Assembly (NCBI GenBank): GCA_038731975.1
Contig: JAVYQJ010000001.1
Location: 186,001 to 250,000, forward strand
Source of the DNA: Thermofilaceae archaeon
Lineage (GTDB): Archaea; Thermoproteota; Thermoprotei; Thermofilales; Thermofilaceae
Length of the DNA stretch: 64,000 nt
Reading direction: 5' to 3'
A program made the translations under genes and the position numbers. Positions 3,902 to 45,381 of this stretch are shown in pieces. Numbering within the stretch: position 1 is the first letter of the stretch; each line of letters opens with the position of its first letter. The notes under the pieces were generated by a model. That model saw nothing but the letters and a program-made list of their open reading frames with translations, did no database searches and was not told where the DNA came from.

Positions 3902-4001
3902 TGGTGCGGCCGCCGGGATTTGAACCCGGGTCGTCCGTGCGGCTGATGCCGCGCTCCGGCGCGGAGGGCCGGCGCCCTAGTCCAGACTAGGCGACGGCCG
4001 C
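3902..4001 (-). tRNA. tRNA-Gly(UCC) with 21-nt insertion in the variable region
   Basis: Read on the minus strand, a 7-bp acceptor stem (GCGGCCG/CGGCCGC), D arm, anticodon stem CCGGC/GCCGG, T arm CCGGG-TTCAAAT-CCCGG and encoded ACCA are all present. The anticodon loop CCTCCGC gives anticodon UCC, with C rather than U at position 33. After the anticodon stem an extra 21 nt (3935-3955, containing the hairpin GCGGC-ATCA-GCCGC) separates it from a normal 5-nt variable loop. I read this as a non-canonical archaeal intron. A near copy with anticodon CCC lies at 9365-9464 in opposite orientation. Confidence 0.88.
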
Positions 4002-9364: not shown

Positions 9365-9464
9365 GCGGCCGTCGCCTAGTCTGGTCCAGGGCGCCGGCCC
9401 CCCGCGCCGGAGCGCGGCATCAGCCGCACGGACGACCCGGGTTCAAATCCCGGCGGCCGCACCA
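9365..9464 (+). tRNA. tRNA-Gly(CCC) with 21-nt insertion in the variable region
   Basis: The structure is the same as the UCC isoacceptor: acceptor GCGGCCG/CGGCCGC, anticodon stem CCGGC/GCCGG, T arm CCGGG-TTCAAAT-CCCGG, and an encoded CCA. The loop CCCCCGC gives anticodon CCC with C at position 33. The same 21-nt insertion (9411-9431) sits between the anticodon stem and the variable loop; CGGA repeats at both ends leave the exact splice points ambiguous. It differs from the copy at 3902-4001 only in the D loop and anticodon. A TATA-like CATATAAG lies about 30 bp upstream. Confidence 0.88.
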
Positions 9465-9572: not shown

Positions 9573-10208
9573 TCAGCTTTTATTACTAAAGTTTTTCCTT
9601 AAGTAGTTGACAGCATCCCATATCCTCGAAGGAGATCTCCCGGTTATTTTGGCTAGCTTGTAATACGTAACTTGGCCTCTAGCCGCTAAGTAGATGGCTG
9701 CGATGGCTATCAAGTAGGGGTCCCTACCCCCTAGATACTTCGCCTTCAACAGCACTTCCTCTGCGTGTTTAACAAGGTTTTCATCGAGATTGAGTTTTCT
9801 AGCGTAAATTCTAACGCTTGATAGGGGGGACAGTCGATCGAGGTGGCGGCTAACTCTTAGGAGCCCCTTCACAGCTTGTTTATAACTCACGTTGATACCG
9901 TGGGCTACTAACCAACAGCAGATCCTCCTCAAAGGTACGTGCTCCCCCTTCCTCCTTAAAGCCGCGTATATGGCTATGGCTAGGGCTGCCCCCTCCACCA
10001 CTCTCTCGGACTTCACGATCCGGTACAGCTGCAGGCACTCGTCGAAGTCGACGCCGAACCGCTCGGCAGCCTCAACGAGAACCCACGTCGCATTGGGCCA
10101 GTAGCAGCCCTCCTCGATAAGCTGGCCTAGCACGAGCCCGCAGCTCCCGCAGACTAGAAACTCAGTCGTCTCAACCGCTCGCCCCCCGCACTCCGGGCAC
10201 GTAAACAT
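9573..10208 (-). CDS. Short TFB (TFIIB)-like transcription factor
   Basis: This 211-residue protein has an N-terminal zinc ribbon (CPEC at residues 4-7, CGSC at 20-23) followed almost at once by two cyclin-like repeats (about residues 55-125 and 135-208; VVEGAALAIAIYAALRRKGE and LIAIAAIYLAARGQVTYYKL). Full archaeal TFB is about 300 residues; here the B-reader/linker between ribbon and core is nearly missing. It may be a specialised TFB paralogue that recruits RNA polymerase differently, or a modulator of transcription. It is monocistronic. Confidence 0.72.
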   Translation of the reverse strand: MFTCPECGGRAVETTEFLVCGSCGLVLGQLIEEGCYWPNATWVLVEAAERFGVDFDECLQLYRIVKSERVVEGAALAIAIYAALRRKGEHVPLRRICCWLVAHGINVSYKQAVKGLLRVSRHLDRLSPLSSVRIYARKLNLDENLVKHAEEVLLKAKYLGGRDPYLIAIAAIYLAARGQVTYYKLAKITGRSPSRIWDAVNYLRKNFSNKS

Positions 10209-10308
10209 GGTGGTAGCAGACGGTCAAGCCCCTTAACGCATGCTGTCAATTTTGGGGGAGGGGGTACGAACGAAAAGCTCAAAACTTGGATGTCGAGAGA
10301 AGTGTGAA

Positions 10309-10413
10309 AGCGGGGCACGCTCAGACCGCCCGCTCAGAGAGCGCATGGAGGGCCGACGTTGTACCGTCGAAGCTGTGAACCTGCGTGTTAACGGGCGGCT
10401 ACAGTGCCCCGCT
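10309..10413. ncRNA. Candidate multibranched structured RNA of unknown class
   Basis: A perfect 10-bp stem AGCGGGGCAC (10309-10318) / GTGCCCCGCT (10404-10413) encloses a perfect 7-bp stem CCGCCCG (10326-10332) / CGGGCGG (10392-10398). Inside are a CGACG/CGTCG hairpin (10354-10358 with 10365-10369) and a possible CGCA/TGCG pairing. Nested coaxial G+C stems of this size in a stretch without genes suggest a folded RNA; strand is not fixed by pairing. I found no RNase P, SRP or C/D signature. It could also be a 5' regulatory element, as dnaG starts 130 bp downstream. Confidence 0.45.
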
Positions 10414-10496
10414 GCTCAGGTCTGTAAACCGTTTTCTCGATCTTCGGGATTGTTGCTAACAGAGATGATCAAATACTGGTTGCGGACGGCAGCAAA

Positions 10497-10508
10497 CCGT
10501 ATAAAAGC
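10497..10508 (+). promoter_or_regulatory. Promoter of dnaG (TATA box)
   Basis: CCGTATAAAAGC is a good archaeal TATA box, centred about 40 bp before the dnaG start at 10543. It predicts a start of transcription near 10529 and a short leader. Confidence 0.55.
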
Positions 10509-10542
10509 ATAGCAAAATCAGGCTTCAGTAGGGTGAATAGGT

Positions 10543-11745
10543 GTGGTTGGTGTGCCAGTCAACGCCAAGTACGTGATTCACGCGAAGATCGAGGTGGAGG
10601 GTCTAGTCGATAAATCAGACATCATAGGGGCTCTATTTGGACAGACGGAGGGTTTGCTAGGCTCGGACTTGGATTTGAGGGAATTGCAGAACAACGGTCG
10701 AATAGGTAGGATAGAAGTGATATCTAGCAAAGCCGATAACAAGATAAGAGGTGTAGTGAAGGTACCGTCTAACTTGAGCAAAATTGAGACTGCTCTTATA
10801 GCAGCTGCACTTGAAACTGTCGATCGAGTGGGACCCTATGCAGCTAAGGTTGAGGTTACTAGAATCGAGGATGTTCGTGCTGAGAAGCGCAAGCGCATAG
10901 TTGAGAGGGCGAAGGAGCTTTTACGGATGATGGAGGAAGAAGCCCCTGAAAGTAGGGAGCTTATCGAGGAGATTGCGGAATCGTTAAAAATCGCAGAGAT
11001 AGTGCACTACGGGCCGGAGGGGCTTCCCGCAGGCCCCGAAATTGATACTTCGGACACTGTCATAGTTGTAGAGGGTAGGGCTGATGTCATAAATCTACTC
11101 AAACACGGGTATAAAAACGTCATAGCTCTGGGCGGCGCCGCAGTACCTAAAACCATCGCGGAGCTCGCGAAAAAGAAGAAGCTGATCCTATTTGTGGATG
11201 GAGATAGAGGCGGTGAGCTGATCGCGCGCAACGTTATCAGCATGATAAATGTGGAAGCAATTGCCCGCGCGCCGCCAGGAAGAGAGGTGGAGGAATTAAC
11301 AGGAAAAGAGATAGCCAAAGCCTTAAAGAATAAGATGAGTGTTAAAGAGTTTCTCGAATCGATAAAGCCGGTTGAAAAAACGGAGGAGGTAAGCTCAGCT
11401 AAGGTTGAGCAAGCCTTTGTGCAGCCACGAGAAGTTGAGGGATTCCAACTTCCCGAACGCGTGGTAAGTGAAGCGAAAGAGCTTCGGGGTACACTTGAAG
11501 CCATACTTTACGATTCCGAATGGAGGTTCATTAAACGGGTCCCGGTCAGAGACCTAGTGAAGGAGATTGGAGAAACAGAAAATGCATCCTACGTTGTTTT
11601 CGACGGTATAATCACACAGCGCCTAGTGGATACGTCAGCGGCTAAGGGGGTAAAAGCTCTCATAGGTGCACGGATAGGGGATGTTCTAAGAATTCCGGAT
11701 GGGCTTATTCTAAAAACTTTAGATGATATCATTAAATCACAATAA
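10543..11745 (+). CDS. dnaG: Archaeal DnaG-like Toprim protein
   Basis: This 400-residue protein has archaeal DnaG length. The N-terminal domain is about 160 residues, then a Toprim domain: VIVVEGRADVINLLKHGYKN (catalytic-type Glu), ALGGAAVPKTI and LFVDGDRGGELIARN (DxD-like acidic motif), about residues 170-260. In archaea DnaG associates with the RNA exosome and influences poly(A)-rich RNA decay; primase activity has also been reported in vitro. The start codon is GTG at 10543. It is alone in its transcription unit. Confidence 0.93.
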   Translation: MVGVPVNAKYVIHAKIEVEGLVDKSDIIGALFGQTEGLLGSDLDLRELQNNGRIGRIEVISSKADNKIRGVVKVPSNLSKIETALIAAALETVDRVGPYAAKVEVTRIEDVRAEKRKRIVERAKELLRMMEEEAPESRELIEEIAESLKIAEIVHYGPEGLPAGPEIDTSDTVIVVEGRADVINLLKHGYKNVIALGGAAVPKTIAELAKKKKLILFVDGDRGGELIARNVISMINVEAIARAPPGREVEELTGKEIAKALKNKMSVKEFLESIKPVEKTEEVSSAKVEQAFVQPREVEGFQLPERVVSEAKELRGTLEAILYDSEWRFIKRVPVRDLVKEIGETENASYVVFDGIITQRLVDTSAAKGVKALIGARIGDVLRIPDGLILKTLDDIIKSQ

Positions 11746-12003: not shown

Positions 12004-12097
12004 GGGCCCGTGGTCTAGCGGCTAGGATGCCCGCCTGACGAGCCCACGCGGCTTAGAGCGCGGGAGGTCCCGGGTTCAAATCCCGGCGGGCCCACCA
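12004..12097 (+). tRNA. tRNA-Val(GAC) with canonical 18-nt intron
   Basis: Acceptor GGGCCCG/CGGGCCC, D arm, anticodon stem CCCGC (12030-12034)/GCGGG (12060-12064), T arm CCGGG-TTCAAAT-CCCGG and encoded CCA are all present. The loop CTGACG gives anticodon GAC at 12037-12039. An 18-nt intron (12041-12058) interrupts positions 37/38, the canonical archaeal site. The flanks (11746-12003 and 12098-12339) hold no gene I can support; the first part is A+T-rich trailer sequence of dnaG, with a weak hairpin near 11865-11925. Confidence 0.93.
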
Positions 12098-28357: not shown

Positions 28358-31446
<3,089 letters not shown>

Positions 31447-45269: not shown

Positions 45270-45381
45270 TGGTGGGGCCGCCGGGACTTGAACCCGGGTC
45301 CCTCCGCGGCGCTCAACCTACGCGGGATCCCGAGGCTAAGCCTCCCGAGCCGCGCATCCTACCAAGCTGGACTACGGCCCC
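45270..45381 (-). tRNA. tRNA-Pro(CGG) with ~33-nt intron
   Basis: On the minus strand: acceptor GGGGCCG/CGGCCCC, D arm GTCC/GGAT, anticodon stem CGCGG/CCGCG, loop CTCGGG with anticodon CGG, T arm CCGGG-TTCAAGT-CCCGG and encoded CCA. About 33 nt (45311-45343) separate position 37 from the 3' half of the anticodon stem, fitting a canonical-site intron. The variable loop as parsed has 7 nt, longer than the usual 5, so a second small insertion or a shifted stem is possible. Confidence 0.8.

Follow-up and report, generated by a model that had tools for sequence, protein, structure and literature searches.

What is the strongly folded segment that lies between a gene for a TFB-like protein and dnaG in the genome of a Thermofilaceae archaeon? 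The segment occupies positions 10309..10413 of the plus strand in the stretch of 64,000 nucleotides that we analysed (the window). The RNA that it specifies is conserved and covarying, and it has the anatomy of an H/ACA RNA plus an additional outer stem, P1. We consider it very probable that the segment encodes a small H/ACA guide RNA with a single hairpin. On one side of it, the short and diverged TFB-like gene (9573-10208, minus strand; hits to PF08271 and to TFIIB repeat that narrowly miss the Pfam cut-offs) is oriented divergently from the RNA. Only genomes closely related to that of the window have a relative of this gene next to the RNA. On the other side, dnaG (10543..11745, plus strand; NF003108, E 4.9e-145) is a neighbour that lies outside the proposed function of the RNA.

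The first-pass annotation had described here a strong multibranched fold, beyond chance and built on two nested perfect stems of 10 and 7 bp with a further hairpin inside. Both the strength and the stems are confirmed by our analysis. The minimum free energy is -54.8 kcal/mol, compared with -40.9 +/- 3.3 kcal/mol in 200 dinucleotide shuffles (z -4.2), none of which was as stable. The outer stem P1 (10 bp, 10309-10318 with 10404-10413) and the lower stem P2 (7 bp, 10326-10332 with 10392-10398) are free of mismatches; P2 lies inside P1, and the two enclose more helices, among them the upper stem P3 (10341..10347 with 10380..10386, with one mismatch in the window) and the apical hairpin P5 (10355..10368, loop UUGUAC). 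What has to be given up is the multibranched form: helices P1 to P5 stack as a single unbranched rod and thus make one hairpin. The minus strand folds nearly equally well (z -4.0), so the strand cannot be deduced from energy alone. The plus strand is assigned from conserved loop motifs of the homologs, the orientation of dnaG and an AT-rich element upstream.

A BLASTN search of 61 relatives returned 13 related loci (L001, which is the window itself, to L013), and they have the loop motifs AGAGAGC, UGUACC, UGA and GUGUUA in common. Further BLASTN matches (L014-L030) were rejected as short chance similarities, some of them within 23S or genes. A covariance model built from three sequences (R1) matches the RNA at 26 loci in 25 of the 27 genomes of the order Thermofilales; the same search found none in G021 (52% complete) or G022 (93% complete). 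In a pattern search, the matching named records were Thermofilum, Thermofilaceae and Thermoprotei MAGs.

The proposal of an ncRNA is borne out by these homologs, which carry many compensatory changes. The alignment of the 26 loci of the order (25 distinct rows) has 93.4% of its cells paired, and the covariation check in relatives gives two-sided changes in 24 of 31 pairs. For P1 this holds in all ten pairs; for P2, where 98.5% of cells are paired, it holds in six of the eight modelled pairs. The covariation score is 0.596; shuffles give 0.168 +/- 0.014, and slid structures do not exceed 0.149. Fitting of the alignment to the model biases it toward the structure, and the slid controls still lie far below. 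The RNA as a whole is supported by fold, covariance-model matches and covariation, its stems P2 and P3 by covariation, P5 by fold and covariation, and P1 by fold, covariation and a comparison of own with cross-pair energies.

Beyond the order, we searched with a core model (R2) built from 18 of the 26 loci, omitting L048, L054, L055, L056, L057, L062, L065 and L067 for redundancy or misalignment. Of 398 genomes of the phylum, 55 contain a match, and 30 of these lie outside the class. Of the 31 loci that were retrieved from outside the class, 30 show the motif GAGAGC / UGA / GUG with an ACA or AGA box. Within the class, the RNA is also present in family f10 (L125, L126) and in family f12 (L192, L204), the latter two loci being found by reading upstream of dnaG. 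The RNA is most likely common to many archaea of one phylum.

An Rfam search of positions 10200-10560 at E <= 10 matched no family to the window RNA. The first-pass annotation had likewise recognised no known RNA by motif, and for RNase P and 5S this stands: archaeal RNase P RNA (RF00373) and 5S rRNA (RF00001) were considered and give no match at the RNA, and the genome has both of them elsewhere (G000:C23 and G000:C3, respectively). For H/ACA RNA it does not stand, since the RNA has a pocket, a k-turn and an ANA box. Elsewhere in the window, Rfam finds tRNA genes of 91-109 bases at 3905-4001, 9365-9461, 12004-12094 and 45273-45381; of these, ARAGORN reports all but the one at 45273-45381. Among the loci of relatives, L237 weakly matches Pyrobac-1 (E 0.07).

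According to sections of PMC4652768, an archaeal H/ACA RNA has a lower stem of 7-9 bp, a two-sided internal loop and an upper stem with a k-turn or k-loop, and its ANA box lies 14-16 nt from the closing pair of the pocket. The canonical productive fold given there has a GA stem of 10, a pocket of 5 and a spacer of 9. We compared the parts of the window RNA with these rules and with those in sections of PMC7991803. P2 represents the lower stem (7-8 bp) and P3 the upper stem; between them is a two-sided pocket with the strands CUCAGAGA(G) and GUUAA. The 5´ side of the pocket, CTCAGAGAG in DNA (10333..10341), is the proposed 5´ guide and is near-invariant in homologs. The 3´ side, GTTAA (10387..10391), is the proposed 3´ guide; here GUGUUA is common to the RNA and the HgcG consensus. 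The ACA box (10401..10403) lies 14 nt past the closing pair of the pocket.

The k-turn of the upper stem was located from the homolog alignment and a rule-based H/ACA scan. Its unbulged strand consists of GA and the first base of the C stem (10348..10350), its bulged strand of the C-stem C, the bulge UGU, GA and an extra A (10373..10379). A 5´-GA before a G-C pair thus stands opposite a 3-nt bulge and GA (GA / NRU-GA). Apart from the extra A, the window k-turn is peculiar in having only one good C-stem pair, the second not being formed. The GA stem of the window RNA (7 pairs, 1 bulge and 2 G-A) counts to 10 if its bulge is included, with a pocket of 5 and a spacer of 9, and three homologs (L061, L062, L063) have a bulge-free canonical 10/5/9 fold with a GA stem of exactly 8 + 2. 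In 56 of 60 homologs, the aligned core ends in an ANA box. In relatives the box reads ACA, AUA, AAA or AGA, with both outer A's retained; L192 has no clear ANA box. The scan, which was written after the structure was known and therefore not blind, and which allowed U or G as last base of the bulge, found one site on both strands of the 64-kb window, namely the window RNA, and four sites in total in 20 shuffled windows. Of the 30 homolog rows, 19 pass the scan (one of these, L055, is a duplicate) and 11 fail.

If established H/ACA biology applies, L7Ae would bind the k-turn, and Cbf5, the gene for which we found in the genome, would bind the lower stem and the ANA box together with Nop10 and Gar1. 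The pocket would then hold 23S rRNA in such a way that one U is converted to pseudouridine.

We infer from homology to hairpin III of HgcG/Pab40, together with weak complementarity, that this U is the equivalent of E. coli U1915 in helix 69 of 23S rRNA (U 30432 in the proposed target 30428..30442, plus strand). In Euryarchaea, Pab40 and Afu-4 introduced the corresponding pseudouridine in vitro, according to parts of PMC2584109, and sections of PMC2584109 and PMC4652768 propose HP2 of Haloferax as the guide for both U1915 and U1917. Helix 69 of the window's genome reads UAAC-U-CUGA-CUCUCU. The 3´ guide GUUA is complementary to UAAC before U1915, and the 5´ guide AGAGAG to CUCUCU. In archaeal H/ACA RNAs, the guides pair on both sides of the U and leave about two target bases unpaired. 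A strict canonical target of this kind was sought, and no convincing site with two unpaired bases was found in that search. Across all guide sets, U1915 takes first place among 606 U's, but for this five target bases must be allowed to stay unpaired, and it is unranked with two, three or four; because the pairing needs this five-base loop, we speak of a predicted target. In an earlier target scan, shuffled rRNA reached or beat the score in one of 12 trials.

Some relatives count against this target. The 3´-guide match is absent from L056, L064 and L066, and the genome that carries L064 (G017) has an unchanged 23S helix 69. In families f9 and f13, all 23S matches listed read CCCUCU instead of CUCUCU (U1921 to C), for which a compensatory guide AGAGGG would be predicted; neither a search with this pattern nor reading upstream of dnaG revealed an ortholog of the RNA in these families. 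A separate observation concerns the 23S rRNA of G017 (L084): immediately behind helix 69 (CTCTCTTAA) it has an interruption, which is probably an intron of about 600 bases.

Two other readings have to be weighed here. The RNA could be a genuine H/ACA guide directed at another site in rRNA, tRNA or mRNA. Two-base canonical spacing indeed favors 23S sites such as 966, and three-base spacing favors 2661. Their scores are, however, 16.0 and 17.9 compared with 21.3, and homology indicates U1915, so that another target seems to us unlikely, if still worth serious consideration. To our knowledge, neither 966 nor 2661 is a modified site. It has also to be asked whether the RNA guides modification at all. 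A structured k-turn RNA that binds L7Ae, or a degenerate guide that has taken on a new function, would agree with the imperfect target pairing and with the invariance of the G-U and C-G pocket pairs beside the guides, which is more than a guide needs. The behavior of the ANA box speaks against such an RNA: its middle base varies between C, U, A and G and both A's stay, which is a signature of H/ACA RNAs. Homology to HgcG points the same way, and we give this reading little credence.

The position of the RNA raises another question, that of a cis-acting 5´ leader whose fold, perhaps bound by L7Ae, controls expression of dnaG; a regulatory leader was also the alternative left by the first-pass annotation. 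In 26 of 28 loci examined, and likewise in the two f12 loci, the RNA is located just 5´ of dnaG and on its strand, and in some genomes the spacer of 29-34 nt is too short for a separate promoter. Other arrangements speak against a leader. In G018, one copy begins about 10 bases after a 5S rRNA gene, without a TATA-like element, another precedes the gene for eS26, and dnaG is divergent. The order is pheT, RNA, tyrS, dnaG in the f18 locus L210 and pheT, RNA, dnaG in the f10 locus L126, and the f15 locus L220 has no dnaG. Further, among 29 dnaG loci from other class members and from RNA-less genomes of the order, the RNA was seen in leader position in the two f12 loci only. Given the arrangements in L210, L126 and G018, we regard the linkage as inherited gene order with no sign of cis-control, and a dnaG leader as very improbable. 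The copy by 5S rRNA in G018 (L068, 1112-1345), a second one in this genome, is apparently co-transcribed with it; since G018 is a draft with about 3% contamination, one of its copies might come from another species. Upstream of the RNA, AT content in 25 loci peaks at 24-34 nt (0.82-0.83, compared with 0.45-0.64 farther up), and the window's own promoter-like element, AT-rich and weak (10276..10288, plus strand; match 4/6), lies about 30 nt 5´ of the RNA. This peak suggests that the RNA has its own promoter.

To return to the probable H/ACA guide, what is unusual in it is the outer stem that comes immediately behind the ANA box. By the archaeal H/ACA rule, the ANA box lies three nt from the mature 3´ end; in the window DNA, the 3´ strand of P1 follows the box immediately, and before any trimming the box would lie within the fold and not near a free 3´ end. 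In the order, P1 starts directly after the box; in f15 and f24 a few nt separate the two. A looser test with flanks of 24/26 nt was uninformative at a cut-off of -10 kcal/mol, because 68.5% of cross-pairs also fell below it, and a tighter energy test was used instead. In the order, own pairs of P1 strands have a mean energy of -20.4, as opposed to -10.2 for cross-pairs, and in 23 of 25 cases the own pair ranks within the top six of 60. It ranks first in both f12 loci, and several phylum families likewise have own pairs that beat cross-pairs. P1 is short and no better than cross-pairs in most f15 loci, and by the same test L236 has no P1 that can be told from cross-pairs.

Within our knowledge and a limited literature search, no H/ACA RNA with a box clamped between helices has been described. 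P1 would, at a guess, protect the ends, mark the precursor for trimming or gate binding to the ANA box. A broader scheme, which we put forward tentatively and regard as somewhat doubtful, is that of a phylum-wide H/ACA form with the ANA box between two helices. Here Cbf5 might bind the clamped box, or the clamp might be a processing signal or assembly gate, and the GAGAGAG guide might slip by two bases so as to serve both U1915 and U1917. The outer stem bears directly on how the ANA box must be presented to Cbf5.

One of the closest known RNAs is HgcG / Pab40 / Pf7 (RF00064). Its hairpin III is like the window RNA in hairpin form, k-turn, 3´ pocket GUGUUA and ANA box. We searched 25 relatives with Rfam at a permissive cut-off, part of them at E <= 0.01 only, and obtained HgcG matches for L211 (E 2.9e-6), L210 (0.001), L126 (0.0018), L214 (0.0029) and L216 (0.015); the best score is 34.7 bits, and all are well short of 77, the gathering cut-off. 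The three alignments that were shown, those of L210, L211 and L126, place the hairpin on hairpin III of HgcG with GAUGA, GUGUUA and ACA in register. There are also clear differences. HgcG has three hairpins and the window RNA one, the 5´ pocket is GAGAGAG in the window RNA and GGGUUA in the HgcG consensus, and the consensus structure as shown lacks an outer stem such as P1. Because both the score and the three-hairpin form fall short, we do not class the window RNA as Rfam HgcG. No second hairpin is present in the 100 bases between the start of the TFB-like gene (10208) and P1. Several f15 and f24 loci have another ACA-ended hairpin directly upstream, and these tandem hairpins resemble the tandem of Pab40. 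In L220, L221, L224, L218 and L237, a second H/ACA-like hairpin ending in GGGACAC is seen about 30-150 bases upstream of the core, and its own stem closes on both sides of the ACA.

The Haloferax guide Hvo2 / HP2 can be compared by description only. As presented in parts of PMC4652768 and PMC2584109, its target is the same helix 69 loop (L1956, L1958), and there, too, additional target residues have to stay unpaired; an outer stem, unlike P1 of the window RNA, is not mentioned in those parts. Short single-hairpin archaeal guides with a k-turn, covered in sections of PMC4652768, are like the window RNA in size and k-turn. They mostly lack a lower stem, whereas the window RNA has a full lower stem and the outer stem in addition. 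If our assignment is right, a guide for a near-universal ribosomal modification has been missed by Rfam in these Thermoproteota genomes, and a helix 69 guide would be traceable from Thermococcales to Thermofilales, with an outer stem gained.
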